Below, piece after piece: positions 2,656 to 22,937 of a stretch of 22,937 nt of DNA. Origin of the DNA: a virus. The stretch covers positions 1-22,937 of the IMG/VR virus record IMGVR_UViG_3300049431_000004. One strand, 5' to 3'. Position numbers and translations under genes: made by a program. Every line of letters starts with the position of its first letter. Within the stretch, counting starts at the first letter, position 1. The notes beneath the pieces are model-generated. The model was not told the DNA's origin. It was given only the letters and a program-made list of their open reading frames with translations, and did not search any database.

Positions 2656-2684
2656 TCATAGATTTAGGTATAACACAATGGCAA
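2656..2684 (-). promoter_or_regulatory. Sigma70-like promoter for the DUF1353 gene
   Basis: On the minus strand TTGCCA (2684-2679), a 17-base spacer and TATGAT (2661-2656), 5 of 6 matches in each box. A start near 2649 would give a leader of roughly 28 bases before the GTG at 2621. It overlaps the plus-strand late promoter region. Confidence 0.4.
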
Positions 2685-3253
2685 CATTTACTGACTTGAT
2701 TTTCAAAGGCCGCGACATCTCAGAAGCCATCAAGGATCAACTGGCAGCTCGTGCCGCTCACATTATCGAAAACTGCGATAAGGAAGCTGTTCTTGCTGAA
2801 GCTCGTATGATCCCTGATCGCCGTGAAGCAATCGTCGCATTCGCTACGCAGCACTACAACAAGACCCACGGTACCGATTTTCCTAAGCACGATGTGCATG
2901 CTCATCTGTATGGCGGAGAAGCGTCTGAATTTGCTGATCATGTTGAAAAGCATGCCTCACCAGAAATGCCCGATCACCTTGAAAAGAATTTCGGCCTGAC
3001 CAAAAATTCCTTCATGGAAGGTACTGATGCTGAACCGTTCTCGATTGCTGAAATGGAAGACGGTCCGGGTAACAACATCCCTGCACTCTCGAAAGAACAA
3101 GTCAAGCATATTCTGGCTACTTTCAAAGTGCGCGATCTCCCAGCTGACTATCACCTAGATGATGTCCTTCCTTCATATCTACAAAATGTGCAGTCAGTGA
3201 CACCAGCGCCAGAAACCGATACCGAAGATGAATATCAGAAGTGGTACAAGTAA
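2678..3253 (+). CDS. Putative prohead core/scaffold-associated protein (gp67 position)
   Basis: A 191-residue acidic protein beginning MATFTDLIFKGRDISEAIKD, then helical N-terminal and mixed C-terminal parts. It lies behind a late promoter and heads the run of genes leading to gp68-like, 21, 22 and 23, where T4 has 67 and 68. It is longer than T4 gp67 (80 residues), so homology is only inferred from position and the DLI-type N-terminus. A TAGG site about 9 bases before the ATG is the probable ribosome-binding site. It could instead be a minor virion protein. Confidence 0.45.
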   Translation: MATFTDLIFKGRDISEAIKDQLAARAAHIIENCDKEAVLAEARMIPDRREAIVAFATQHYNKTHGTDFPKHDVHAHLYGGEASEFADHVEKHASPEMPDHLEKNFGLTKNSFMEGTDAEPFSIAEMEDGPGNNIPALSKEQVKHILATFKVRDLPADYHLDDVLPSYLQNVQSVTPAPETDTEDEYQKWYK

Positions 3254-3515: not shown

Positions 3516-3838
3516 AGATCAACCAATTTGCATATCCACATCAAGGTGAAGTGAGCTTGCTAGTCAATGCAATATCTTACACGAGCTAGACTACCGAATA
3601 CCTGACAAATTTCTAGTTTGTCGATATCTCGGAAATCACTTGGTCTGTTGGGTCTGTCGGTTACATTGAACTTCAATGGGTCAATACAGAAGAGACTGCG
3701 TTCGTACTTTCTGGCACTGGCAAGATCAACCTGAAGGCAATCCCACCAAAAGATTCTGACGGTGGTTTCAAAGTCAACTATGTCAACTTCTCAGAAAATG
3801 ATGCTGCTATGTTCTGCGTCAGAGGTAGCGTGAAATGA
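3512..3838 (+). CDS. Hypothetical beta-rich structural protein with two in-frame TAG codons
   Basis: GTG at 3512 overlaps the preceding TGA (GTGA), and the TGA at 3836-3838 overlaps the next ATG (ATGA), so the frame exactly fills the gap between coupled genes. TAG sits at codons 26 (3587) and 35 (3614); no TAA or TGA interrupts it. The 108-residue product has strong beta-strand character after residue 36 (ITWSVGSVGYIELQW, AFVLSGTGKINL), similar to small phage virion proteins. Under the standard code no gene would be called here. The role is inferred from location in the prohead cluster. Confidence 0.6.
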
Positions 3839-4224
3839 ATTCACTCGAAAAAATCAAATCCGAACTTTCTATCAGATTACAAGAAGCAATTATCGCTGCC
3901 AAGAAATCAGCAGCTCCGCCGCTTGCACCAGCTCCAAGCGGCGCTGGGTTTGATCCCAACCATATTGTGATTGGCCGCACTGGTCTTGTCAACCGCATCC
4001 GTGGTGGCAAGTTGCAGTGGAGACATCTGGTTTCCGAACAGCAGGGATTCAAGATCCTTGATGGCAGTCTTGTCAAGATGACTCCTCAAGAAATGCGCCA
4101 TCGCAGAATTGCAGCTCGCATCGGTGCCCGTAAACGATCAGCCGAAATCGCACAAATTACCCGTAGGCGTAACCTTTCTCTGGTCAAGAGAGATGTTCGC
4201 CTCAATGCCTACACAGGAGTTTAA
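3835..4224 (+). CDS. 68: Prohead core protein, gp68-like
   Basis: A 129-residue basic protein directly before the protease gene, the place of T4 gene 68. It has a helical N-terminus (MNSLEKIKSELSIRLQEAII), a Pro/Ala-rich linker (45-60 region) and a strongly basic C-terminal half with VKMTPQEMRHRRIAARIGAR followed by further Arg/Lys-rich helix, a pattern shared by gp68-type core proteins of distant T4 relatives. LQE near residues 15-17 fits the LxE cleavage rule of gp21. It should act in the core on which the shell assembles. Its ATG overlaps the upstream TGA. Confidence 0.6.
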   Translation: MNSLEKIKSELSIRLQEAIIAAKKSAAPPLAPAPSGAGFDPNHIVIGRTGLVNRIRGGKLQWRHLVSEQQGFKILDGSLVKMTPQEMRHRRIAARIGARKRSAEIAQITRRRNLSLVKRDVRLNAYTGV

Positions 4225-4227
4225 GAC

Positions 4228-4893
4228 ATGAGCAATATTCTGCTTGTGGAATCCAACTTTTCAAGCGTACAGAGCTTGAACGAAGATGTTGGTGGTCAAA
4301 AGAAATGGTTCATCAATGGCGTGTTTGCATAGCACTCCGTTGTCAACCGCAATCGTCGTATCTATCCGAAAGATGTGCTTAACGAATCCATCGGAAGCTA
4401 TGTCAACGAGTTCATGAACAATGGCCGTGCCGTTGGTGAACTCGAACACCCAACTACTGGTGCCAAGATCAACCTTGACCGCATTGCCTGTAAAATCGTC
4501 GGCTTGCACGAGGATGGTAACTCTTGGATGGGTCGTGCGCAGGTACTAGATACTCCATGCGGTAAGATCGCATAGGGTCTTCTGGAAGCAGGTATTCAGC
4601 TGGGCGTTTCTACCCGTGCTGACGGTCAGCTCAAGAACAACTCACAAGGCATTATGGAAGTCCAGCGTGGCTTGAAAATGTCTGCTATCGATATCGTAGC
4701 CAGCCCATCTGCACCTGATGCCTTTGTGCAAGGTCTGATGGAAGGTCATGATTTCGTATGGGATACCATGAATGAAGATGTTCAGTTCGTAGAACAGCTT
4801 CGCATCGATATCCAAAAAACAAGTTCGCGCAATCTTCAAGAAGCCAAGCTCGCTGCCTTCCAGAAGTTCATGCAGAACATTCGAACAAAGTAA
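4228..4893 (+). CDS. 21: Prohead maturation protease gp21, with two in-frame TAG codons
   Basis: A 221-residue serine protease that trims scaffold and capsid proteins inside the prohead. Markers: VVNRNRRIYP (38-47), GELEHP with catalytic H74, LGVSTRA with nucleophile S128, and PSAPDA near the end. T4 gp21 is 212 residues with His85 and Ser140 in the same motifs. TAG at codon 35 (4330) and codon 116 (4573) splits it into three pieces under the standard code. Codon 35 falls in GVFA-TAG-HSVVNRN, where T4 has GIFMQAEVVNRN as I recall it, so TAG replaces Gln. The ATG has an AGGAG site 8 bases upstream. It is not a pseudogene: catalytic residues and spacing are intact. Confidence 0.9.
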
Positions 4894-4931: not shown

Positions 4932-6014
4932 ATGAATATCGACGCATTCCGCACCCTACTTGAAAACATGGCTTCTCGCCCTCTTGACAACCCGCAAGGT
5001 GATTTGGCTCCAGAAGCTGCTCCTGATATGTCAGGTGGTGCAGGTGGCATCGGTGCAGATCCTCACGCCCTTCGCACAGCTGACGACCTCGCTGCTGTTG
5101 ATCCACTACAGCCCGGCATCATCCCTGATGTACCCGGTGGCATCGGTCAAGATCCTAAGCGCCCTCTAGACAAGACTGTCGCTGAGGAAGAAGAAGAAGA
5201 CGGCGAGAAAGATGAAGACGATGGCACGATGGCTGAATCTTTCACCAAGCATATGCAAGAGCATGTGAAGTTTGAAATCAGCTTCAAAGATTCTGGCCTG
5301 CTTGAATCCCTCGAACTGGATGAAGACCTCGCTGCTAAAGCTGCCGACACTTTCCAGAAAGTCATTCAGGAAGCTGCCGACGCTCATGCTACCAAACTGA
5401 ACACGATTGCTGGTCAGGTCATGGAACAAGTCATCAAGGCAAAAGTCGAAGTGATGGAAGCTGCCGTTGACAAGTACATGGACACTGTTGTGACCGAATG
5501 GATGGAAGAAAACAAGATTGCGGTTGCTGCCGGTATTCGTACTGAAATCGCAGAATCCTTTATGGAAGAAATGAAGACTGTATTCGAGCGTCATTATGTT
5601 GAAATGCCAAAATCGAAGAAAGATCTTTATGAAGAAGCCATTAGCAAAGGCGAAGAAATCTTTGTCAAGCTGACTGAATCTGAAGTTGCCAAGGCTGAAT
5701 TGGCTGGCAAGTTGCAAGCCGCTGAAAAGCGTCTAGTTGTCGAATCAGTTGTTGCTGGCATGGTTGCAACTAAAGCTCATAAGGTTCGTGAACTTGCTGA
5801 GTCAATGGAGTTTGATGCTGGTATGGAATCCAAGCTTCGTGCAATTGCAGAAGAACTAAATGAAGAAGCAACAAAGACGGTTGAAAAACCAATCAGTTCA
5901 CCGATTACAGAAGATGTTTCTAGCATCGTTGCTGATCTCCAAGAAGACGCTCGTTTCCAGAAAGCTATTGATCCACAGGTAGCAAGTTACATGAGTTTCT
6001 TCAACCGTTTGTAA
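4932..6014 (+). CDS. 22: Prohead core scaffold protein gp22
   Basis: A 360-residue, very acidic, mostly helical protein between the protease and the major capsid gene, as in T4 (gp22, 269 residues). It has a Gly/Pro/Asp-rich N-terminal third, an acidic run (EEEEEDGEKDEDD, about 78-90) and a long coiled-coil-like region (about 100-320) rich in Glu, Ala and Lys. N-terminal LLE is a candidate gp21 cut site. The ATG at 4932 is preferred over the upstream TTG because GGAG lies 6 bases before it. It forms the internal core and is degraded on maturation. It contains no TAG codon. Confidence 0.8.
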   Translation: MNIDAFRTLLENMASRPLDNPQGDLAPEAAPDMSGGAGGIGADPHALRTADDLAAVDPLQPGIIPDVPGGIGQDPKRPLDKTVAEEEEEDGEKDEDDGTMAESFTKHMQEHVKFEISFKDSGLLESLELDEDLAAKAADTFQKVIQEAADAHATKLNTIAGQVMEQVIKAKVEVMEAAVDKYMDTVVTEWMEENKIAVAAGIRTEIAESFMEEMKTVFERHYVEMPKSKKDLYEEAISKGEEIFVKLTESEVAKAELAGKLQAAEKRLVVESVVAGMVATKAHKVRELAESMEFDAGMESKLRAIAEELNEEATKTVEKPISSPITEDVSSIVADLQEDARFQKAIDPQVASYMSFFNRL

Positions 6015-6095: not shown

Positions 6096-7385
6096 ATGAG
6101 TCTCATCGAAAAGTGGAAAGAAGTTCTCGAACACGAGAGCATGCCGAAAATTGAAAGTGCTGAAAAGCGCAAGATCACAGCTCGCCTGTTGGAAAACTAC
6201 CAGATCGAATCAAACAAGGAACGCGGCATGTCCTTGAATGAAGATGCTGTTCCGACCAACTTGAATGCAAATGTCTCGAAGTATGACCCGATCCTGATCT
6301 CCTTGATCCGTCGTGCTATGCCGAACATGATTGCATACGATGTGTGTGGTGTACAGCCAATGACTGGCCCTACTGGTCTGATTTTCGCAATCCGTCCGAA
6401 GTATGCAGCTGGCGGCGCTATCACCAACGAAGCTTTCTACAACGAAGCTGACAGTGATTTCTCGGGTACAGGCACTCACGCAGGCACATCACCTGATGTT
6501 CTGAACGATGCAACTCCCGGTTCGTACACATACGGTACAGGTATGTCAACTGCTGCTGGTGAAGCTCTGGGTATCACTACTCCGTTCGCCGAAATGGGTC
6601 TGGAAATTGAACGCGTTTCTGTTGAAGCTAAAACTCGTGCGCTGAAGGCAACTTACAGCATCGAAATGGCTCAGGACATGAAGCAGATTCACGGTCTGGA
6701 TGCAGAAACCGAACTGGCTAACATTCTGACCTCAGAAGTTCTGGCTGAAATCAACCGCGAAGTTATCCGCACTATCTATGTGACCGCCAAGAAGGGTTCA
6801 CAGCAGATCGATCTGGCAAGCAACGCAACTGGTGGCGGTATCTACGATCTTGACACTGACTCGAATGGCCGTTGGTCAGCTGAGAAGTTCAAGGGTATGC
6901 TGTTCCAGATTGACCGTGAAGCAAACCGCATTGCCAAGGACACTCGTCGTGGTAAGGGCAATTTCATCATCTGTTCAGCTGATGTGGCTTCGGCTCTGTC
7001 GATGGCAGGTGTTCTGGATTACGCTCCGGCTCTGATGACTGAACTGCAAGTTGACGACACCGGTAATACCTTCGCTGGTATCCTGAATGGTCGCTACCGC
7101 GTGTTCATCGATCCGTACGCCACTGGCGATTACTGGGTTGTTGGTTACAAGGGCGCGAATGGCTACGATGCTGGTATCTACTACGCTCCGTATGTTCCTG
7201 TCCAGATGCTGCGTGCAGTTTCCGATGACAGCTTCCAGCCGAAGATTGGCCTGAAGACTCGTTACGGCATGGTTGCTAACCCGTTCGCTGAAGGTCTGGT
7301 GAAGGGCAATGGCGCGATGACTGCTCGTGCAAACAATTATTTCAGGCTTACTAAGGTAACTTCGTTGGCCGGTGCAGCTACCTAA
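6096..7385 (+). CDS. 23: Major capsid protein gp23
   Basis: A 429-residue HK97-fold major capsid protein of the T4 family. The signature LISLIRRAMPNMIAYDVCGV and QPMTGPTGLIFAIRPKY (about 66-102) is very characteristic. The N-terminal about 49 residues form a charged delta-like domain; SLNE at 46-49 fits the gp21 rule (LxE) and would release mature protein starting DAVPTN. The C-terminus (KIGLKTRYGMVANPFAEG) is also typical. The ATG has GGAG 7 bases upstream. It ends in TAA immediately followed by TAG, and a rho-independent terminator follows. No TAG inside. Confidence 0.97.
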   Translation: MSLIEKWKEVLEHESMPKIESAEKRKITARLLENYQIESNKERGMSLNEDAVPTNLNANVSKYDPILISLIRRAMPNMIAYDVCGVQPMTGPTGLIFAIRPKYAAGGAITNEAFYNEADSDFSGTGTHAGTSPDVLNDATPGSYTYGTGMSTAAGEALGITTPFAEMGLEIERVSVEAKTRALKATYSIEMAQDMKQIHGLDAETELANILTSEVLAEINREVIRTIYVTAKKGSQQIDLASNATGGGIYDLDTDSNGRWSAEKFKGMLFQIDREANRIAKDTRRGKGNFIICSADVASALSMAGVLDYAPALMTELQVDDTGNTFAGILNGRYRVFIDPYATGDYWVVGYKGANGYDAGIYYAPYVPVQMLRAVSDDSFQPKIGLKTRYGMVANPFAEGLVKGNGAMTARANNYFRLTKVTSLAGAAT

Positions 7386-7503: not shown

Positions 7504-8304
7504 ATGATCACCTTAAAGAACTACACGCAGAACTGCGTCATTCCAATTACCCAGCTGACATTTCCAGCTGGCGAACGGCATGTCAGCATCGATTATTCCT
7601 ACCTGCGCTCGCGTGACCATATCTACATGTACTTGGATTTCCAAAGCAGCGATGACATCGTTGATATGATGCACCTGCGTGAAATTCTTGCCAACCACAA
7701 GGTTACACTTTCCCTGAACTATGTCCCGTTTGCAAGACAGGACCGGGCAGTCAACCTTGGCGAAGTGAATGCCATGAAGGTGTTTGGTAAGCTGGTCAAC
7801 TCGCTCAACTTCGAGAAGGTCTTGGTAGCCGATCCGCATTCCGATGTCGTGGAAGCAGTGATTGACCGTATCGTCATCACACCACAGCATTTGCTGGCTA
7901 ATCAGATTATTGACCGGAAGTATGACTACATCATCTCGCCTGACATTGGCGCAACGAAGAAGACCGAGAAGTACGCAGCTCTGGTTGATACTCCGGTGCT
8001 CCAGTGTAATAAGAAGCGCGACCTGAAGACTGGCAAGATCCTGAAGTTTGAAATTCTGGATTGCCCTGACTTGGCTGGCAAGCGAGTTCTTGTGCTCGAT
8101 GACATCGGAGATGGGCTTGGAACATTCCACATGCTTGCAGACGCGATCAATAATGACACATGCGAAAAATATCTTTACATTACGCATGGAATTTTTTCAA
8201 AGGGACTTGATGAGATCATGAAAAAGTACCGAGGAATTTTTTGCCACAATCCGATGAACTTTTCAGAAAAGTTCATAAATGGATACTACGGTGGTATCAA
8301 CTGA
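7504..8304 (+). CDS. prs: Ribose-phosphate pyrophosphokinase (PRPP synthetase)
   Basis: A 266-residue protein of the PRPP synthetase / phosphoribosyltransferase fold, making PRPP from ribose 5-phosphate and ATP. Motifs: PFARQDR (75-81), ADPHSD (109-114), KKRD (170-173) and the PRPP loop VLVLDDIGDGLGT (195-207). It is shorter than cellular enzymes (about 310), as is usual for phage versions, which often pair with a nicotinamide phosphoribosyltransferase for NAD+ salvage; no such partner lies in this window. AGAGG precedes the ATG. Its TGA overlaps the HNH ATG by one base. Confidence 0.9.
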   Translation: MITLKNYTQNCVIPITQLTFPAGERHVSIDYSYLRSRDHIYMYLDFQSSDDIVDMMHLREILANHKVTLSLNYVPFARQDRAVNLGEVNAMKVFGKLVNSLNFEKVLVADPHSDVVEAVIDRIVITPQHLLANQIIDRKYDYIISPDIGATKKTEKYAALVDTPVLQCNKKRDLKTGKILKFEILDCPDLAGKRVLVLDDIGDGLGTFHMLADAINNDTCEKYLYITHGIFSKGLDEIMKKYRGIFCHNPMNFSEKFINGYYGGIN

Positions 8305-8891
8305 TGGAAGAAATTTGGAAACCGTGCCAGAAATATTCTGGCTACGAGGTCAGTTCTTATGGAAGGATTCGCTCTATTGATAGGCTCATACAGAGATCTG
8401 ACACTGGGACGAGTGTATTCTATAAAGGAAGAGTGCTGGTACAGTAGATCGACGAATATGGGTATATGCGTATCAGGCTATCAGTCGAAAATAAAAAGTT
8501 CAGTGACAGCGTTCATAGAATAGTTGCAAGTGAATTTGTAGAGAACCACTTGCAACTACCACAAGTCAACCACAAAAATGGGATAAAATCCGATAATAGA
8601 TTTGAAAATCTAGAATGGGTTACAAATCAAGAAAATCAATTACATGCCATCGAGCATGGCCTGAAGTTGATAACTTTTGGTACCGAGGCAATCGCGTTTG
8701 TCAGGTCAGTAGATGTACTTGACATGGATGAAAACTACCTATACACTGTAAGCGGAAACAGAGAAATGGCAGAGCATGGATTTGATTTTAGGCTGGTAAG
8801 CGCATGCTTGCTTGGTAAGAGAAAATCACATCGAAACCATAAATTTACAAAACACGAAACCAAGGCCGGAGTACAATCATGCCAAAACTGA
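8304..8891 (+). CDS. Free-standing HNH homing endonuclease with one in-frame TAG
   Basis: A 195-residue NUMOD4-HNH protein. The N-terminal NUMOD4 module (EEIWKPCQKYSGYEVSSYGR) is followed by the HNH core: HRIVASEFV, QVNHKNGIKSDNRFENLEWV, QENQLHAIEHGL. The C-terminal region (about 130-185) resembles a NUMOD DNA-binding repeat. TAG at codon 48 (8445-8447) interrupts the segment KGRVLVQ-TAG-IDEYGYMRIRL; relatives commonly read 'K.Q.. GY..V.L' here, so Gln fits. Codon use is richer in ATA, AGA and AAT than its neighbours, pointing to a mobile origin. It overlaps prs by 1 base and the next gene by 13. It should nick or cut DNA to spread itself. Confidence 0.88.
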
Positions 8892-10630: not shown

Positions 10631-10637
10631 CTAAATA
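10631..10637 (+). promoter_or_regulatory. Late promoter motif CTAAATA
   Basis: CTAAATA lies 43 bases before the ATG at 10674. By T4 spacing transcription would begin near 10643, removing most of the left arm of the hairpin that overlaps it. Confidence 0.6.
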
Positions 10638-10668
10638 CCGGCTATAGTGTCAATCAACTTAGCCGGTA
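10636..10668 (+). promoter_or_regulatory. 9-bp inverted repeat between late promoter and start codon
   Basis: TACCGGCTA (10636-10644) and TAGCCGGTA (10660-10668) are perfect inverted repeats with a 15-base loop. The right arm ends five bases before the ATG at 10674 and covers the only place a ribosome-binding site could be. No T-run follows, so it is not a simple terminator. Confidence 0.75.
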
Positions 10669-10673
10669 TTCCA

Positions 10674-12752
10674 ATGTCAATAATCAATAGCATCCTCTCC
10701 GAAGAATCCCTACTAGAAGAACTCAACCAGAAGCAAAAAATGGCAGTTCATGGTTGGCATCGTGGAGATTATTCATTTTCTGATCATGTCTTTGGTGCCG
10801 AAGACAGTGGTGGCAATTCAAGTTCAGATAGAGTAGTCATTCCATTACTTTCAAAGGATGGAGCGACTGCAAGGCCAGATTCTAAGGTAGTAGAGCATCT
10901 TGCTGCACATGGATACGATGTGCATGACTACAAAGCAGGCCATGCTATCAAGTCAGATGGTTCTGACAGAAGACCTTTCCGAATTGGCGCTGTCTTGAAT
11001 CAGACAGATGCAACTCCAGAGGTCAAGAAAGCATTCGAAGCAGATCCAGCTAGGCGCATGGCTAAAAACAAGAATGACGATCTTCAGGTTGTTATCAGCA
11101 GACATCGGCATGATGTCGCTGGTATGAGCACAAATCAAAACTGGAAATCATGCCAGCAATTAAGTCCTAATGGTAAAGCTGAAGGACTAGCATCTGCGTT
11201 GAAGTCCGACATAAGCGAAGGAAGTCATGTCGCATACCTATGCCGTAAGGGAGATAACACTGCATCAAATGCACTTTACAGAATTGCATTGCGTCCATAC
11301 AAAAGTGCGAATGGTCACAAGATTGTAAGACCTTCCGATAGAGCATATCCATCTCAAAATGATGACTTTAGTCATACTGTACGACACTTCACAGAAGAGC
11401 ATTTCCCAGCTCGTGATTTCAAGTACAAACTTTCTGGTGGCTACACTGGTGACGAGTCTGAAGCGAACAGAACCATTTACGCTAGTAATTTCAGTGATGC
11501 CGAATACAAGAAAATTGCTAAGGTTTCACCTTTTGATGTTGCACATCATCCTCACATTTCTTCAAATGTGATCGGTCACATGATTGACCATCACCCAAGT
11601 TACCATTTACAACTTTCTAGGCACCCGAATGCGTCCAGCGCAAATTTGCAAAAACTTTGGAACTCTAGTACAGATGAGAGCGCAAAGGTAAATGTGCTTT
11701 CGCATCCAAATGTACCAAGAAAGATTGTTGATAGTGTCATTGCAGACAAGTAGGATACCAGAGGTGCTACTGTACTGATCGGCAATAGCTCTTTGAAAAA
11801 AACTGATTATGAAAATTTGGCTGATCACTTTCACCCTGACAACATGGTAAAACCTGACATGGTTCAGAAATATCAGGGAAGAGAAGATCTTCTTAAAAGG
11901 CATGTCAACTACAATATCGATGCCGTATTCCATAATATGCACAAAAACCCATCCCTGCATTCGAAAGCAATTTCTAAAGTATATGGAGCACTTTCCAATC
12001 ACAATCTGAAAGAGACTGATACGAATTTTGATAGAGTAGCATATGACAGCAGAACTCCTTCTGATGTACTAGATCATATGTCAAGGAATGGTATAGGTGA
12101 CACTGCTTCAATTGCAGGGCACAAAAATGCCATGCCGTCTACACTTAGCCATCTGTGGGAACGCGCTCATGAAAATGCAAAAGATAGTGAAGGGTGGGTA
12201 TAGAGAAATGCCTCTTACACAATGCAAAAGATTGCAAGTAACTCAAAGACTCCATCTGACATTTTAGGCAGTGCTAGAGCGCATGAAGATGCAAGGGTAA
12301 GACTTGCTGCATTTACAAATCCTAAGACGAGTGTGAAGGAAAGAGTAAACTTTATCAAGAATCGTGACAATGCACAGTCAATTCATACGCATGCTATGAA
12401 TATGGATGCTTTCAACACGATGAGTCAAAATATACCACATCACGAAATCAAAAAGGTACTCGGTGACCTAAACAACCATGTACATGATCCAAATGAGAAT
12501 GACTACTTCAATGGATTGTCTAAGCAAAAATTTGCCGAAAGTCTGATTTCAAAATCTGATAGCCCAGAGCTACATTCCGAGTTCGTGAATCACCCAGATC
12601 GCCATGTAAGAGAAGCAGCATTCCAGAGCCGATTTGCAAAAAGGCTTACCCGTGCCGATATCCGCGCTGGTATCAAAGATCCAGATGGAAGAGTTCGTGG
12701 AGAAGCAAAAGCTCGCAAGAACTATGTATATGAACTCACTGGCAACGCATAA
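10674..12752 (+). CDS. Large paralogous protein 1, candidate internal head protein; two in-frame TAG codons
   Basis: A 692-residue protein when TAG at codons 360 (11751) and 510 (12201) is read through; frame and sequence style continue across both (VIADK-TAG-DTRGATVL, SEGWV-TAG-RNASYTM). N-terminus MSIINSILSE ends in LSE at residues 8-10, like T4 capsid-targeting peptides. A domain at about 75-250 contains VISRHRHDVAGMS (140-152), an NWKSC block with C160, HVAYL and DFSHTVRHF, shared with two other proteins here. From about 290 on it consists of degenerate helical repeats with 'HPN...' and 'SKTPSDIL' units, like HEAT or variant leucine-rich repeats. ATG 10674 is preferred over GTG 10647, which lies in the hairpin loop. 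Molecular function unknown. Confidence 0.75.
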
Positions 12753-12763
12753 GGAAAATGAAA

Positions 12764-14884
12764 ATGGTAATCAAGAAAGAGATGTTTGAAATCATTCTAG
12801 CGGAAGCGTTAGACTCGATTCAGAAAGAAAAGGTTGACAACTTCGAGGTCGAAAACGACCAAGGCAAAGATGTACATCCAGAGAAGGCAAGGCACCCTCT
12901 GGTGCAGAAAGCCATCGAGAATGTCTTCGATGGCAAGTACCGTGTCCGTGTCCCTTTGAAACACGAAGTACAGGCACACCCGGAAGTCGAAGCCCACCTG
13001 AATGAAAATGGCTTTAAGATCTCCGATTACCTTCGTGGTAAGGCTACTGACAAGTATGACCGCGAAGTCAACATTGGCCGTGCCCTGAGTAAGAGCAAGG
13101 CTCCAAAAGAACTTCTGGACAAGTACGCAGAACACTCGGAAGGTGCACGCAATTCGATTGGTGCCGATGACATGGAAGCTGTTATCAGTCACCATCCTCA
13201 TGATGTCGCCGGGATGACTTCAAAAGGGCAGTCATGGGAACATGAATCGTGCTTGAACTTTGAGAGTGGTTGTAATCGCCATTACATCCCAGAAGAGATC
13301 AAAGCTGGGACACATGTTGCATACCTAGTAAAGAAAGGCCACGGGATCACGCCAGAAGGCCACGATACTGGTGATTTAACGCAAGTCTATGGTCGTATCA
13401 AGGTTCCGCCTTTTATCGCCTCTAACGCCGACCCAGAGGCGCATGTGGTGTTCCGTCCAGAGAAGCGCCAATATGGTGTCAAGAACGATGTGTTCAGCCA
13501 CACTGTTGCAAACTGGACAGATAAGAAATACCCAGCTGAAGGTGGACTGACTTACAGAAAAGACGAGAATGTCTACTCAGATTACAATTCTGGCAAAGAT
13601 GAATTCATCTCACATACGCCTACAAGTATCACAGATAAGCTCGATGCTGGAAATGGTGCTATCCCCGATCTGGAGCCAAAGTTGCTCGATCATGCAGTTT
13701 CTCATATCGAAAACAATCCAGTCAGACGAGGAGTTGCTATTGATCTACTCAACTCGAACCAAGAAAATATAAGTCATTCCCAAGTCAGCAGGCTGACAAA
13801 GCACATCAACTTAGTGAGGGATGGTCATATGTTCAGCGAGGGTACATTGAACCGGGTTCCAGAATTGGCAGACAAAATCGCAGATGCTCATTTGAATGAC
13901 TTGGATACAGGTGGACTTCCTAACAATGTTTTCAAAAGCCCTCATTTAAGTTCTCGGTATGTCAAGCTGGCGAACCCCGGACAAGTGCCGTTCATGCACG
14001 AGAAGCACATTGATCATGATGTCATTTCCAAGTCAATCGAAGACCACAAAAATTCGAAACTAGGAGCGTATTCGGTTGCGACTGCATTTGGGCTTGAACA
14101 TATCATGTCTACTCACCCTGAAAGGTTGACCAAAGAACACATTAACAAAATTGCCGACCTACCTGAAGAAAAGTTTGAGGGAATGGGTGGTGTCGATTTC
14201 ATGGCAAATCAGCCGAATTATTCACATGAAGCACATCAGAAACTTCTGATGAGAATTTCAAATCCGAGAAGACTGGTTGCCGCTTCTACTCATAAAGTAG
14301 ACAACCCAGCGGCTGTTCTGAATCGTTATAGTGCGCTGTACACAAATTCGATTGATATGGTAAGGCACCTAACCAACAAAAGTAATCCAGAAACTCATGA
14401 CTCGTTAATGAATAGCTACATTGATGTTCACGAAAAAGAAGGTGGCGGTTACTTGAATATCAATGGACTCAATATTTCACCTGATCATTTGTCAGAAGAA
14501 ACAAAGGCCAAGATGAAACCGATATCGACTAAAGGGACATCGACAAACAAGGCACTTTCTCTATTAGATGTAAAGAACACGGCAGACAATATTTCTGCAT
14601 ATCAAAGAGCAAATGGAAATGATGCCCATATCCACACCGAGATTACGAGGAAAATGCGCGATCACATGTACACGAATTTGTCGAAGAATTATAGTCCAGA
14701 TCATGCACATGATAAGTCAGATAAAGATTTTGCAGATACCGACAGAACCATTGACGAAATCCACAAATCTCTACCTGACCCATCTGTGTGGGATCGCGAT
14801 GTACATCAGATGAAAACCGAACTGAAGCAGCACCATTCTGACTATCGAGAAAATAGAGCTTTCCACGGTTTCCAAAATCAGTAA
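12764..14884 (+). CDS. Large paralogous protein 2, candidate internal head protein
   Basis: A 706-residue protein, 11 bases after paralogue 1. The ATG at 12764 is chosen because AAGGA (12751-12755) lies 8 bases before it; the ATG at 12758 is too close. N-terminus MVIKKEMFEIILAE ends in LAE, as in T4 internal protein I (FIAE). The shared domain has DYLRGKA, VISHHPHDVAGM (140-151), a W..ESC block, THVAYLVKKG and FSHTVANW. The C-terminal two thirds are helical and repeat-like (RRLVAASTHKVDNPAAVLNR). No TAG. It ends 7 bases past the stop of the convergent peptidase gene. Function unknown; not an enzyme I recognise. Confidence 0.75.
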   Translation: MVIKKEMFEIILAEALDSIQKEKVDNFEVENDQGKDVHPEKARHPLVQKAIENVFDGKYRVRVPLKHEVQAHPEVEAHLNENGFKISDYLRGKATDKYDREVNIGRALSKSKAPKELLDKYAEHSEGARNSIGADDMEAVISHHPHDVAGMTSKGQSWEHESCLNFESGCNRHYIPEEIKAGTHVAYLVKKGHGITPEGHDTGDLTQVYGRIKVPPFIASNADPEAHVVFRPEKRQYGVKNDVFSHTVANWTDKKYPAEGGLTYRKDENVYSDYNSGKDEFISHTPTSITDKLDAGNGAIPDLEPKLLDHAVSHIENNPVRRGVAIDLLNSNQENISHSQVSRLTKHINLVRDGHMFSEGTLNRVPELADKIADAHLNDLDTGGLPNNVFKSPHLSSRYVKLANPGQVPFMHEKHIDHDVISKSIEDHKNSKLGAYSVATAFGLEHIMSTHPERLTKEHINKIADLPEEKFEGMGGVDFMANQPNYSHEAHQKLLMRISNPRRLVAASTHKVDNPAAVLNRYSALYTNSIDMVRHLTNKSNPETHDSLMNSYIDVHEKEGGGYLNINGLNISPDHLSEETKAKMKPISTKGTSTNKALSLLDVKNTADNISAYQRANGNDAHIHTEITRKMRDHMYTNLSKNYSPDHAHDKSDKDFADTDRTIDEIHKSLPDPSVWDRDVHQMKTELKQHHSDYRENRAFHGFQNQ

Positions 14885-15663
14885 ATGTCTGCCAGTGTCT
14901 GGGGTCGCGGTCGGTTAACGATCCCAGATGGCAACTTCTTCCAGTCAATCGAAAGCACTGCATCCTGTAACCAGTTCAGATATGTCCAGTCAAGATACTC
15001 GTTTTGGGTATGTTCGTTACCATACCCTACCGAGATGTTAAAGCACTCAGGAACAATCCCAAAATAGTTTGCGGTGTCAGTGAAGCTGCCAACTGCTGGT
15101 GTAAAGCCTTTCCCACCCTGAAGGTCAAGCTGTGCACAAAGCCACCCGGCAGAAGCAGCAGAAGCCATCTTGGTACCAAGCTGCACGACAACCACATCAT
15201 GCGTACCCTTGCGATCAAATGCGATTGCATGCTTGATCCCAGTCAATAATTCCGGTGTGGCTTCTGCGATGTAGGAAGACCCAAGACCGCCAATCTCCTC
15301 ATCACGATGGAAGATGTAAAGCCCTTCGATGCCAGCTTCGATCATTGACAGCAGGATGAACATCCCAGCACCATCATCGGCACCAAGGATCTGATTACTA
15401 CCCGTACGAATAGTCGCGCCCAGATCCAGAATGTCGCGCTTCTCGATGTCGCTTGCACGCTCGCATGTATCGATGTGGCACGAGAACAGAATGGTCGGCT
15501 CACCGATCTTGACGATGATGTTGCCGTACCGGTCTGCTTCGTATTCATGCGCGATGTTCGGCAGCAGATAGTCGTTGATGAAATCAGATTCCTGCCATGA
15601 CCTAGCCGCTCGTGGGTACGAGAGGATTTCTAGCAGATCAGCCTTATCGAATGTAGTTTTCAT
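14878..15663 (-). CDS. Zinc-dependent aminopeptidase-like protein (M28/M42 type)
   Basis: A 261-residue co-catalytic zinc peptidase. Expected residues appear in order: SCHIDT (H63, D65), LGADDGAGM (D96/D97, bridging Asp), RDEEIGGLGS (E122 general base, E123 ligand), AFDRKG (D150) and GNEHTQNE (H218). It is shorter than typical M42 enzymes (about 340), so the dimerisation insert is probably reduced. No signal peptide, so it acts in the cytoplasm, perhaps on peptides. AGGA lies 7 bases before the ATG. It has its own sigma70-like promoter and sits behind the gp32 terminator, so it is regulated apart from the replication operon. Not a T4 gene. Confidence 0.82.
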   Translation of the reverse strand: MKTTFDKADLLEILSYPRAARSWQESDFINDYLLPNIAHEYEADRYGNIIVKIGEPTILFSCHIDTCERASDIEKRDILDLGATIRTGSNQILGADDGAGMFILLSMIEAGIEGLYIFHRDEEIGGLGSSYIAEATPELLTGIKHAIAFDRKGTHDVVVVQLGTKMASAASAGWLCAQLDLQGGKGFTPAVGSFTDTANYFGIVPECFNISVGYGNEHTQNEYLDWTYLNWLQDAVLSIDWKKLPSGIVNRPRPQTLADIY

Positions 15664-18481: not shown

Positions 18482-19363
18482 TCAAAATAGATGCAGGTTC
18501 TCGATAAAGTTCCCAAGCTTGTGGCTGTTGAAATATTCGAGCATCGTTGACTTCGAAGCAACCGGCGCATTCTCGTATGCAGTGATCACATTCTGCTGTA
18601 CTTCATAGGGAATGTCAAACAAGCTGATCAACGATTTATTGCGCTCGTAGTACACCAGTTCTTCTGGGATCACTCCTTCCATCAGCATCGGAATCCACTT
18701 GTCAAGCATCTTCTGGCTGATTGGCTTCTGGCGCTGGCCGATCATGAAGATGTCATCTTGTGAGATGCACGAAGGAACATCGTCACCGGCATCACCCTTG
18801 ATGACTTTTGTCAGATAGTCGATTTCAATCGAGTCGGATCGAACATGCTCGTTACGAGTCGAGTTCCACTGATCGATACCTTGCAGTCTTTGCAGTTGCA
18901 ACATGTCATGGTCAGCAGAGACGATCATTGATCGGTTATCATACTTTGACCCGATCTCATCACGCAAGCTCTTGTGGCGATGCTGGATGATAGATCCGAT
19001 GATATCATCACCTTCACAGTCACTCAAGCACACGACCTTGTACGGCATGCAATGAATAAACTCTTCCTTGATGGCTTCCATGAAGTCGCCAATGAATTCC
19101 CAGTCAAGCGGAGAGCTGGCCTTCTTGTTTGCACGACGAACCTTGTAGTACGGGAATGCCTTGCGCCGCCAGAGTTGTTCGGACTTGCCATCAAATGCGA
19201 AGACCATCTCGTTGCCATATTCACTGCCAAATTTCTTGCGCAACCCAAGCACATGCTGCATCAGATAGTTTCTGGCATCATTGAAGGTGGTGTTTCCACC
19301 AAATGCCTTCTGTGCTTCTGCACAGGCAGCGATTACGACATTGTTACTATCAACGATGATCAT
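18482..19363 (-). CDS. rnh: RNase H / 5'-3' flap exonuclease
   Basis: A 293-residue FEN/5'-nuclease family enzyme matching T4 RNase H (305). Acidic metal sites in order: IIVDSNN (D5), FAFDGKSEQLWRRKAFPYYK with the arched basic segment, SDCEGDDIIG, VSADHDMLQL and GDAGDDVPS (helix-3-turn region). It removes RNA primers from Okazaki fragments with gp32. The ATG at 19363 fits the family N-terminus; the upstream extension would lie in the kinase gene. It overlaps the kinase end by 14 bases. No TAG. Confidence 0.9.
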   Translation of the reverse strand: MIIVDSNNVVIAACAEAQKAFGGNTTFNDARNYLMQHVLGLRKKFGSEYGNEMVFAFDGKSEQLWRRKAFPYYKVRRANKKASSPLDWEFIGDFMEAIKEEFIHCMPYKVVCLSDCEGDDIIGSIIQHRHKSLRDEIGSKYDNRSMIVSADHDMLQLQRLQGIDQWNSTRNEHVRSDSIEIDYLTKVIKGDAGDDVPSCISQDDIFMIGQRQKPISQKMLDKWIPMLMEGVIPEELVYYERNKSLISLFDIPYEVQQNVITAYENAPVASKSTMLEYFNSHKLGNFIENLHLF

Positions 19364-19919
19364 GATTGATACCTGCGGAGTTGATTGCGTCAACGAGACG
19401 GTTTTCCAGATCAACCAGTGATCCATCATTTACGATGTCTTGGTTGACATACGATTGGTTAACACCGGCTTCTGAAGAATGGGTGATGTTTGTGATCTTG
19501 ACATCGCGACCTACGATCTGAATGACGATACCACCTGCATCACGAATTGCCTTGGCTTCGTTGTCGAAACGGACATCAGTGATCAGAACAATACCACCAT
19601 TTTTCGATGCTGTCATTGCCTTTGACATACAGACATCAACCCAGAGTGAACCAGAAATCGTATCACGACCCCATTCGGTACCGAGAGTCTACATCGCGTA
19701 GCGAGGAGTTTTACCACCGAGGATTGCAGAAGGAACTTCGTAGATCTTGTGAAATTCTTCCAAGTTGCTATAACCAACAAGACCCATGACCATCTGGCGG
19801 ATAGGTGCAGCAAAGCTGCACCGTGCCACTTGATCACCGATATCATTGAAGTAGCTAGTCAGGATGTCAGCAGATGTATCTTTTCCTGACTGCGCCTTAC
19901 CAGTGATCCCGATAATCAT
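19350..19919 (-). CDS. Deoxynucleoside monophosphate kinase with an in-frame TAG
   Basis: A 189-residue P-loop kinase. Walker A GKAQSGKDT (7-15) at the N-terminus, then ARCSFAAPIRQMV, TPRYAM-TAG-TLGTEWGRD and LITDVRFDNEAKAIRDAGG (DVR motif). It phosphorylates dNMPs to supply DNA synthesis, as T4 gp1 does. TAG is codon 77 (19691-19689). In this family the stretch is commonly 'R..MQ.LGTE', and T4 gp1 has RRLMQALGTD as I recall it, so TAG stands at a conserved Gln. The standard code yields two fragments, neither functional. The ATG overlaps the DsbA stop (ATGA). Confidence 0.9.
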
Positions 19920-20233
19920 TCGTCGTCACCTTCGTCTTGATCTTCATCGGCATCCTTGATACCACGGAGCACGACGAACGACTCGTAGAAAGCATCGTCA
20001 GCAACACGCTGCTGTTCGAGGTTGTGGTTGTAGATGGTGCGTGCGAAGCGGTTGACAACCTTTGGCGGCATGTCGAACTCTTCCTTCAAGAGCTTCTTGA
20101 TTTCCTTGATGTGGTCAGATTCAGCTGACTGTCGAACCAGACTGTTGACGATCTCTTCCAAAGCGGAGTTGATCTTTGTCTTGTCGGCTGGACTGGACGG
20201 CATTACCCACGATTCTGCATTTTCGATAGTCAT
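19916..20233 (-). CDS. dsbA: DsbA-like double-stranded DNA-binding protein
   Basis: A 105-residue protein related to T4 DsbA (89 residues), which binds double-stranded DNA and affects late transcription. The matching part is IKKLLKEEFDMPPKVVNRFA to EQQRVADDAFYESFVVL, compared with T4 'KDELGVDGKMFNRLLALYH... .VFEAETEEVVELYDTVF'. The C-terminal end is very acidic (DADEDQDEGDDE). T4 carries dsbA next to rnh and 33, as here apart from inserted genes. ATG and TGA overlap both neighbours. Confidence 0.75.
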   Translation of the reverse strand: MTIENAESWVMPSSPADKTKINSALEEIVNSLVRQSAESDHIKEIKKLLKEEFDMPPKVVNRFARTIYNHNLEQQRVADDAFYESFVVLRGIKDADEDQDEGDDE

Positions 20234-20688
20234 TCTGACTTCTCCTGTTGTGTTTGTTCATGTTGGATCATTTCGATCCCCTGAGACTGCATCTTACTAA
20301 TAATTTCTGGAGAATTCCAGCGTTTTTTGAAATTTTCATCGCCTGAATCAAAAAATACTGTTTTGATCCCTGCATCTACAATTTTTCCTGCACACTGTTC
20401 ACATGGTGGATGTGTCACGAAAAGAATTGCACCTGACAACCTCGCTTTCTCTGCAAACTGAATGCAGTTGTGTTCTGCATGGTTTGTGTACATAAGCTTG
20501 CGATCCCGGCTCTACAGAACCCACTCGTCATCAAACTCTGGCGGTGGTCCATTGTAACCTGTCGAGATGATCGCCTTTCTCTGATCAACGAGAACCGCAC
20601 CGACCTTAGTCGATGGGTCTTTGCTCCAAGAAGCAACTTCAAGTGCTTGCTTTCTGTAGCGGTCTATCCAAATCTAACTGAAACCCAT
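20230..20688 (-). CDS. cd: dCMP deaminase with two in-frame TAG codons
   Basis: A 152-residue zinc deaminase converting dCMP to dUMP for dTTP synthesis. Key residues: STGYNGPPP (42-50), HAE (H70, E72) and PPCEQC (C96, C99). TAG occurs at codon 5 (20676-20674) and codon 59 (20514-20512). The conserved N-terminal segment SWSKDPSTKVGAVLVD (20-35) lies between the two TAGs, so both must be read for an active enzyme with its natural start. AGGA lies 9 bases before the ATG at 20688. Starts upstream would collide with the preceding gene. T4 dCMP deaminase is longer (about 190), but this is close to the bacterial size. Confidence 0.9.
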
Positions 20689-20824
20689 ACTGTACCATCC
20701 TAATTGCTACTTTTCTGTCGTAGCCATTGTCAACTAAATTTTTCACTTGTGCAAGTTCTTCTGCACTAAATTCAATTAGCGGCCTCAAATCGACTGTGAT
20801 CTTTGGCATCTGAATTTTTAACAT
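20639..20824 (-). CDS. Small hypothetical protein, first gene of the minus operon
   Basis: A 61-residue protein, start MLKIQMPKITVDLRPL, with a helical FSAEELAQVKNLVDNGYDRK segment. AGGA lies 7 bases before the ATG at 20824, supporting this start. The last 50 bases overlap the dCMP deaminase gene in another frame, an unusually long overlap, so the C-terminus may be constrained by it. No family recognised. No strong promoter is visible just upstream. Confidence 0.5.
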   Translation of the reverse strand: MLKIQMPKITVDLRPLIEFSAEELAQVKNLVDNGYDRKVAIRMVQYGFQLDLDRPLQKAST

Positions 20825-21259: not shown

Positions 21260-21829
21260 ATGGACATAAAGTGGAACTCAGAGTGCCGTATTGCTGGCAT
21301 CGATTGGTCAATCACATGCCCTGCCATGTGCATCGGCGACGGTGAGCAATTTGTGATCAATACCTTCACGAAAAAGAAAGGCGTTACTGGTGAAGGCAAC
21401 ATTCGCCTTGATAAAGTTCCAGAGTTCAAAGACAACCAAGAACGGTTCAACGACCTTGCAACTCAATTTTGGTATGAGTGCGTTAAGCACGGCGTAAAAA
21501 CTGTATTCATCGAAGACTATGCCTTTGCCGGTAATGGTCGCATCACTGACATTGCCGAGTCAGTCGGGGTGCTCAAACACATGCTTTGGCAGCAAGGAAT
21601 TTCCATCATTCCAGTTTCTCCGTCTGCCAACAAGCTTGCTGCTTCCGGTAAAGGGAATGCAAAGAAGCATGAAATGGTTGAAGCATTCAAGAAAGTACAT
21701 CCAGAAATCGATCTGGAAAAAATAACAAAAGCCAACATTACGCCAAGTAGTGTTCCAAGTCCGATACAGGACATCGTAGACGCATTTTTCCTTTACCAGT
21801 ACGGGATATCAAAACTCAATGAAAACTAA
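21260..21829 (+). CDS. RuvC-like Holliday junction resolvase
   Basis: A 189-residue RNase H-fold nuclease of the RuvC type. Acidic residues fit the family: D15 in AGIDWS, E85 in VFIEDYAFAGNGR, and D171/D174 in IQDIVDAFFLY; VLKHMLWQQGISIIPVSPSA and NAKKHEMVEAF are also typical. It would cut branched DNA before packaging, the job of gp49 in T4, whose fold is different. GGAG lies upstream of the ATG at 21260. Its end overlaps the next gene by 11 bases. Confidence 0.82.
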   Translation: MDIKWNSECRIAGIDWSITCPAMCIGDGEQFVINTFTKKKGVTGEGNIRLDKVPEFKDNQERFNDLATQFWYECVKHGVKTVFIEDYAFAGNGRITDIAESVGVLKHMLWQQGISIIPVSPSANKLAASGKGNAKKHEMVEAFKKVHPEIDLEKITKANITPSSVPSPIQDIVDAFFLYQYGISKLNEN

Positions 21830-22937
21830 GCCTAGCTCCTTCAGGGAGCTTGTAGAAGCACTTTCACCCGAAGCGCAACATATTGCTGACCAGATGTCTC
21901 AAAGAGCTGGGATGGAAGGCTACTATCACCATGATGATGTATTCGGTCCCGGTGAAGACAGAATCGTCATGCCGATCATCAAGCATGACGACAACATCAG
22001 GCACATCCCGCAAAATGAAATCCCATCGAGTGTTGTTGATCACCTGAGCAAGAACGGATGGGCAATTCATGACTACCTTGGCAATGCCGCTACGCGTACT
22101 CGGAAGTACACTGACCCAAATGGAGTTCCAAGAGAAAAGACTGAGATCCAGCGCATCAGTCAGGTGCTGAAGGACAACCCAGAAGCATCAAAAGAACACT
22201 CCGTTGCACTGGGTATGCACGGCGGTGCATCAGATGACGAGCACGAAATTGTAATCTCAAGAGCGCATCAAGATGTTGCCGAGATGTCGTCTGGTCGCAA
22301 GTGGGCAGCTGGTTCTTGTATGCGCCTGCCGGGTGAATACAAGAACCACCCATCGATTCTTGACAAGCTAAGCCCGAACGAAAAAGAGATGGGTGGCGTA
22401 TACCATCACAAAGTCGAAGCCGACATGAAGCATGGCACGCTTGTTGCCACGATGGTCAAGAAAGGAGATACCTTCTCGACAGACCCATCTGCCAGAGTTC
22501 TGCTGAAAAAGTTTATCAACCCGAATAATCCGAACGATACGATCTACCGCCCAGAGACAAAAATGTCTTACGGCAATCCGACATCTAGCTTTTTCCAGAC
22601 TGTCTCGAAATGGTCAAAAGATAACTACAAGGGAAGCGGCCTATCGGCAGATGAAGATTCAAGAACTTATGTAAAGCATAATGAACTCTACGACGATGAC
22701 GAGCAAGCAGTCAGAACGGTTTCCAAGAAGCCTGCATCGACATATACAGTTGGTAACGAAATTCGGAATGAGACTAGAAATGATGAAGGCCAGCTGCACT
22801 CTATCAATGACCAGCCAAGTTCAGAAACCGTCAATACAAAGACAGGGATGATTGTCAAGCAGTGGCACAAGAATGGTGTCCTGCACCGTGACGGTGACAA
22901 GCCTGCACAGGTCACGACAATGAAGTCAGATATGGGT
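21819..22937 (+). CDS. Large paralogous protein 3, candidate internal head protein (3' partial)
   Basis: The frame is open from the ATG at 21819 to the window end (373 residues seen, no stop of any kind). N-terminus MKTKPSSFRELVE ends in LVE at 11-13, again like a capsid-targeting peptide; MKT also starts T4 internal protein I. Shared domain: HHDDVFG, DRIVMPI, WAIHDYLGNA, IVISRAHQDVAEM (144-156), GSCMRL with C167, GTLVATMVKKG and FFQTVSKW. After about residue 300 a different tail begins with GQLHSINDQPS and KQWHKNGVLHRDGDKPAQV, a MORN-like phage repeat ('NG.LHRDGD.PA'). Third copy of the family after 10674 and 12764. Confidence 0.7.
   Translation, partial: MKTKPSSFRELVEALSPEAQHIADQMSQRAGMEGYYHHDDVFGPGEDRIVMPIIKHDDNIRHIPQNEIPSSVVDHLSKNGWAIHDYLGNAATRTRKYTDPNGVPREKTEIQRISQVLKDNPEASKEHSVALGMHGGASDDEHEIVISRAHQDVAEMSSGRKWAAGSCMRLPGEYKNHPSILDKLSPNEKEMGGVYHHKVEADMKHGTLVATMVKKGDTFSTDPSARVLLKKFINPNNPNDTIYRPETKMSYGNPTSSFFQTVSKWSKDNYKGSGLSADEDSRTYVKHNELYDDDEQAVRTVSKKPASTYTVGNEIRNETRNDEGQLHSINDQPSSETVNTKTGMIVKQWHKNGVLHRDGDKPAQVTTMKSDMG

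Follow-up and report, generated by a model that had tools for sequence, protein, structure and literature searches.

The 22,937-base IMG/VR fragment IMGVR_UViG_3300049431_000004 (hereafter the window) belongs to a T4-like phage and encodes three large related proteins (members 1 to 3, Table 1), which share one domain and begin with a short peptide ending in a glutamate; the phage thus carries at least three copies. We propose that they are probably internal head proteins of a virus-restricted family, packaged, trimmed by a protease and probably delivered with the DNA. In this scheme the proteins would be made late, and the N-terminal propeptide would bind the scaffold core and in this way bring the protein inside the prohead. 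Cleavage after [LI]xE would be the work of the phage's own protease, here a gp21-type enzyme whose gene is read with TAG recoded as Gln, and the trimmed protein would stay in the mature head and probably reach the host together with the DNA. The conserved alpha/beta domain of about 200 residues would be the likely working part, acting on a host or phage target, and the variable HEAT/LRV solenoid the likely target selector. The family, its domain layout, the kept cut site, a gp21 gene about 6 kb away and the link between P1 residue and protease type are seen in the sequences, whereas packaging and cleavage are predictions, as is any catalytic or binding activity, and ejection is put forward with more reserve than packaging. 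The initial annotation of this DNA, which had already suggested ejected effectors that disarm the host, was partly confirmed: it is right in substance, once the length and the cut site of member 1 are corrected, and the host-disarming role is its more conjectural part.

The shared domain has 44 invariant columns among the three proteins, and the motifs by which it had first been recognized, V[IV]S..H.DVA.M (SRAHQDVAEM in member 3), W..SC and T/HVA..KKG, are real and form the most conserved part of the family. Searches with tblastn recovered relatives in Lu11 (gp213-215), HRDY3, the Dickeya JA-phages, the Alexandravirus and Rivsvirus phages of Erwinia and Agrobacterium phage Atu_ph07, with E down to 2e-19 against named phages, as well as in two 640-kb uncultured phages; the likeness of the domain among family members is far beyond chance. 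Phage PaBG, in whose phage group the capsid protein is processed according to virion proteomics (PMC7412058), gave no family match in these searches. Member 2 alone retrieved nothing from IMG/VR, and an alignment query was needed to reach the relatives. This query returned 77 loci, some being records of the same named phages, and no match in 84,980 cellular species genomes. Each phage carries one to three copies. Judged from these searches, the family is virus-only and undescribed, with members shared by T4-like and jumbo phages. Its novelty holds with respect to Pfam, but PHROGs already contains jumbo-phage members as families of unknown function (PHROG 17056, 18912 and 5925), outside whose profiles the window members fall. 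The conserved domain has no match in Pfam, the PDB or the functional PHROGs. Across 72 sequences D149, M153, W160, C165 and R213 (member 2 numbering) are invariant, and S144, H146, P147, S155, S164, Y189, D204, K217 and Y239 nearly so.

The second common trait is the N-terminal site, where the predicted cuts follow LLE15 in member 1, LAE16 in member 2 and LVE13 in member 3. Cleavage of member 1 had been placed at LSE10, but the site homologous in alignment to the LxE/[AE]L of its relatives (LNE/EL, LME/EL and others; a slash marks the predicted cut) is LLE15/EL. The propeptide of member 3 has the same form as the N-terminus of Atu_ph07 gp394 (YP_009612059.1), MQYTDLIE/ALKPSEYR. Hydrophobic peptides of 10-14 residues had been described; the LxE endings are indeed present, although in relatives the peptides range from 8 to about 35 residues and are only partly hydrophobic. 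In the aligned site column (P1) of 72 members we found Glu in 39 and Ser or Ala in 30, three being unreadable. The E-type sites mostly read [LI]xE/[AE]L, with Leu (21/39) or Ile (13/39) at P3, 34/39 together, and Ala (18/39) or Glu (16/39) at P1', and their peptides have little else in common. The S/A-type sites read SLS/AL, ALA/AV or STS/AL. In the AlphaFold2 (AF2) model of member 2, residues 1-14 have a predicted local distance difference test score (pLDDT) below 50, as expected for a disordered tail, and lie outside the folded domain; the propeptide of member 1 is likewise a low-confidence tail. That the peptide is variable and external to the fold while the site is kept supports its reading as a propeptide. 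The E-type sites match the published T4 rule, by which gp21 cleaves behind L/I-x-E; in T4 the internal proteins are directed to the head by propeptides of 10 residues, which also target unrelated proteins, and in IPIII an Asp at the P1 position prevents processing but leaves targeting intact (PMC9026906).

Further support comes from the distribution of the protease. With the phrog_207 profile, a gp21-type enzyme was found in 14 of 28 family-bearing records, and all 14 are E-type, near-copies (G003, G004) being included among the E-type records. Of the remaining 14, four are E-type fragments (34-70 kb) and ten are S/A-type records, among them those of Lu11, Salmondvirus and Alexandravirus; nine of the ten are about 130 kb or longer, and several are complete genomes. 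The protease was found in none of the S/A-type records (0/10), a search that a divergent protease could have escaped. The initial annotation had held that relatives keeping the domain while losing the LxE peptide would speak against it; the S/A-type jumbo-phage group is of exactly this kind, and we read it as co-variation rather than as refutation because those phages also have no detectable LxE-type protease. The proposed capsid targeting and processing is thus well supported by Glu at P1 in all 14 gp21-type records and by Leu or Ile at P3 in 34/39 sites, though this is not independent proof. The pairing of P1 residue and protease fits a propeptide that tracks the phage's own protease; the association is consistent but reflects few independent changes (one to three) and falls short of proof.

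Several observations weigh against our proposal. The split between E and S/A needs only three changes on the tree, of which the strongly supported branches force one, so that much of it could stem from common ancestry. N-termini of the LxE type often arise by chance (10 in one genome, where 6.5 are expected, and 7 in another, where 5 are expected), and the genome-wide count was discarded as a discriminator. None of 80 related T4-like loci has a family member near gp23, and therefore we consider the family accessory. No relative of the domain with a known function emerged from the Pfam, PHROG and fold searches. Finally, we located no virion proteomics for any member; the text of the Atu_ph07 article (PMC6102473) makes no mention of gp394, and its virion list, obtained by ESI-MS/MS, is in Supplementary Table S5. 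Part of this would suit ordinary late or early proteins that never enter the head, with an N-terminus that belongs to the fold and with E or S/A fixed by descent: the state changes are only one to three and LxE is frequent near N-termini. We regard this as unlikely, since the peptide before the site is variable and predicted to be disordered, yet the site is kept, and the P1 state matches the presence of a gp21-type protease in every informative record.

An N-terminal resemblance of another kind was seen in Dickeya phage JA11, whose family members (gp176 and gp177) have SLSA or SISA. Two non-paralogous neighbours of the family genes, gp179 and gp180 (locus L004, 8829-10406), carry the same N-terminal M..[LV]S[LI]SA peptide, and gp172 has LSA near its N-terminus. 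An S[LI]SA N-terminus occurs in 10 JA11 genes against 1.1 expected, and because unrelated neighbours begin alike, this suggests that a shared signal also exists in JA11, possibly one for head targeting that is common in Salmondvirus.

The closest known parallels are the T4 internal proteins IPI-IPIII and Alt. Like the window members, these combine a short N-terminal peptide ending in L/I-x-E with a gp21-type protease encoded by their phage, and like this family they are accessory and vary between phages. They differ in that the family members are much larger (about 350-900 residues) and join a conserved domain to a HEAT/LRV solenoid, and in that packaging is here predicted from sequence; no homology of the members to IPI, IPII, IPIII or Alt was detected in Pfam and functional PHROG searches. 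The head ejection proteins of phiKZ and SPN3US, cleaved after S/A-x-E, are also large, multi-copy head proteins of jumbo phages with propeptides cut by a phage protease. However, these are different proteins, and the jumbo relatives described here carry Ser or Ala in place of Glu in the aligned column, and a gp21-type (phrog_207) protease was not detected in their phages.

The genomic setting places the family close to head genes. About 6 kb separate member 1 from gp21, and the annotated head-tail connector gene of Alexandravirus and Salmondvirus is found 2-8 kb from the family genes. This proximity would also suit proteins that are packaged and trimmed but structural, as core or DNA-organising components inside the head without a host role; solenoid C-termini are suited to scaffolding, and T4 core proteins likewise use gp21 sites (PMC9026906). 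We hold such a role to be rather improbable, given that the highly conserved polar set (S144, H146, D149, W160, S164, C165, R213, K217 and Y239) has the appearance of a catalytic or binding site and that a patchy, multi-copy family resembles accessory effectors more than a core part.

Late promoters had been claimed before the first and possibly the third gene. CTAAATA, possibly a late-promoter core, occurs on the + strand at 2631, 4896, 6029, 10631 and 20841, and four of the five copies lie 36-67 nt 5' of gene starts (the gene at 2678, gp22, gp23 and member 1). The copy before member 1, 43 nt upstream, agrees with the claim, but the count in the window is not above chance and the copy nearest to member 3 is about 980 nt upstream. 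The T4 late-promoter consensus TATAAATA shows no enrichment in the window. Late expression of member 1 is thus weakly supported, because the CTAAATA count does not exceed chance.

The conserved domain was modeled with AF2 on residues 1-296 of member 2 (mean pLDDT 84.7, predicted template modelling score 0.79). Foldseek against the PDB returned nothing significant for it; the top matches were mostly GNAT-like (malonyl-CoA decarboxylase, TacT3, Eis2, SSAT, KacT), at E 0.3 or worse. Among predicted viral structures (BFVD), it matched its own family and a small number of distant phage proteins without a name. The C-terminal halves are of another nature. A solenoid is present in members 1 and 2 and in most relatives, and it is variable: among 21 full-length members, 15 match HEAT and 12 match LRV repeats in this half, and phmmer with the C-terminal halves of members 1 and 2 finds neither each other nor any relative. 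The extension of member 1 past its first TAG matches HEAT (E 0.0044). The full-length model of this protein (pLDDT 74.6) has an all-helical C-terminal part, for which Foldseek lists the HEAT/ARM solenoids of karyopherin, PP2A-A and SF3B1 (best E 2.6e-4).

Three enzyme identities were considered for the domain, and none gained significant support. Kinship with PcfJ (PF14284) was suggested by a superficial likeness, in the spacing of Cys, V..G, the paired strands and a late aromatic-G turn, and by weak BFVD fold matches, but profile comparison with nine phage PcfJ sequences is not significant (hhalign probability 0.3%), and none of 22 family-bearing records contains PF14284. For GNAT there is no significant fold match and the Q/RxxGxG/A acyl-CoA loop expected after strand 4 is absent; on inspection of the alignment, the turn that likely corresponds to it is a strand-helix turn reading Y-G-x-P-x-x-x-F. 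No ADP-ribosyltransferase appears in Pfam, PHROGs or the best 50 PDB fold matches listed. A separate case is locus L030 (6060-10715), where, within an open frame of 1,552 residues, about 640 residues of other sequence precede the family domain; this upstream part includes a YunG-like stretch and one that looks, by eye only, like an ADP-ribosyltransferase, and an IYE/EL site directly precedes the domain. It seems quite unlikely to us that the family is a known enzyme in disguise, be it a GNAT acyltransferase, a PcfJ-type domain or an ADP-ribosyltransferase like T4 Alt: GNAT folds mostly head the PDB list (best E 0.3), several PcfJ-like proteins occur in BFVD (E 0.15-2) and L030 has its ADP-ribosyltransferase-looking stretch, but no fold or profile match is significant, and neither the PDB nor the functional PHROGs yielded a match for the upstream stretch of L030.

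We tentatively go further and consider it possible, though on balance doubtful, that the family represents a new virion-carried enzyme. Its alpha/beta domain, without detectable relatives, would hold an invariant Ser/His/Asp/Trp/Cys/Arg core, and interchangeable HEAT/LRV solenoids would choose the target. Two separate groups of large phages would each load it by a propeptide matched to their protease, and after entering together with the DNA it would act on the host.

The reading of member 1 depends on the genetic code. The gene had been taken to end at 11753, but it continues in frame through two TAG codons to a TAA at 12752, the frame being otherwise open over 10635-12752. In-frame TAG codons number eight in the window, over five genes (gp21, HNH endonuclease, member 1, deoxynucleoside monophosphate (dNMP) kinase and deoxycytidylate (dCMP) deaminase), which contain no in-frame TAA or TGA. 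Stop usage in 26 window genes is TAA 16, TGA 10 and TAG 0. With TAG read as Gln, the match of gp21 to phrog_207 improves from E 1.2e-12 for the standard-code fragment to 2.8e-62, and that of HNH from 1.3e-26 to 1e-40. In the dNMP kinase, the TAG sits immediately before TLGTEWGR, a position that we take to be occupied by Q in this enzyme family. The window phage thus most likely uses genetic code 15, given the in-frame TAGs in five genes, the better profile scores with Gln and the absence of TAG stops; with TAG as Gln, member 1 has 692 residues, close to the 708 of member 2. In other phages code 15 has proteomic validation, according to PMC9523058. The two TAG codons could instead be nonsense mutations in a broken gene, and this fits with the 23-kb fragment containing no suppressor tRNA or other recoding gene and with the absence of in-frame TAG from 68 gp21 homologues of other T4-like contigs (0/68). 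We nevertheless consider it highly improbable, in view of the eight TAGs in five genes that spare TAA and TGA, the 0/26 TAG stops, the gain in the gp21 and HNH matches and the TAG at the presumed Q of the dNMP kinase.

Table 1. Features of the window, with positions, strand and remarks.
Feature	Position	Strand	Remarks
gp21-type prohead (head maturation) protease	4228-4893	+	phrog_207; two in-frame TAG (4330-4332, 4573-4575)
gp22-type head scaffold protein	4932-6014	+	phrog_237, E 4e-39
gp23-type major capsid protein	6096-7385	+	identity to named phage capsid proteins
HNH endonuclease	8214-8891	+	one in-frame TAG
CTAAATA, late-promoter-like	10631-10637	+	upstream of member 1
Family member 1	10674-12752	+	692 aa if TAG is Gln, 359 aa in the standard code; two in-frame TAG (11751-11753, 12201-12203)
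Member 1, predicted head-targeting propeptide	10674-10718	+	MSIINSILSEESLLE then ELNQ; 15 residues; aligned cut site LLE/EL
Member 1, conserved domain	10830-11456	+	family alignments
Member 1, C-terminal alpha-solenoid, HEAT/LRV-like	11496-12746	+	AF2 model, Foldseek
Family member 2	12758-14884	+	708 aa; 706 aa if start at 12764
Member 2, predicted propeptide	12758-12805	+	MKMVIKKEMFEIILAE then ALDS; aligned cut site, disordered in model
Member 2, conserved domain	12935-13582	+	AF2 model of residues 1-296
dNMP kinase	19350-19919	-	one in-frame TAG
dCMP deaminase	20230-20742	-	up to four in-frame TAG, depending on start
Family member 3	21819-22937	+	373+ aa; runs past window end
Member 3, predicted propeptide	21819-21857	+	MKTKPSSFRELVE then ALSP; aligned cut site

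The remainder of the window is that of a T4-like phage, with gp21, gp22, gp23, RNA ligase, gp32, gp59, gp33, an exonuclease, dNMP kinase and others. Its gp23 is 64% identical to that of Pseudoalteromonas phage XG4 and 60% to that of Pelagibacter phage HTVC008M; no close relative of the phage was located, the best gp23 in IMG/VR being about 61% identical. A ribose-phosphate pyrophosphokinase gene (7504-8304, +) lies directly 3' of gp23 and is followed by the HNH endonuclease gene, and a gene of a phage peptidase family (phrog_4191; 14878-15663, -) is convergent with member 2. Two genes 5' of gp21 (2678-3253 and 3835-4224, both +) have no PHROG match; the product of the first (MATFTDLIFKGRDISEAIKDQL...), possibly a core protein, has an ISE/A site close to its start.

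Internal head proteins are, in their roles, the least known of the virion parts of large phages. The family described here can be recognized by sequence in T4-like phages and in jumbo phages of Erwinia, Dickeya, Pseudomonas and Agrobacterium, which provides candidates in cultured phages. Because of the apparent TAG recoding, gene calling with the standard code would cut short or miss the prohead protease and one cargo gene of the window phage. If the propeptide does track the protease, P1 residues would make it possible to predict, from sequence alone, the cargo of virions and the specificity of prohead proteases.

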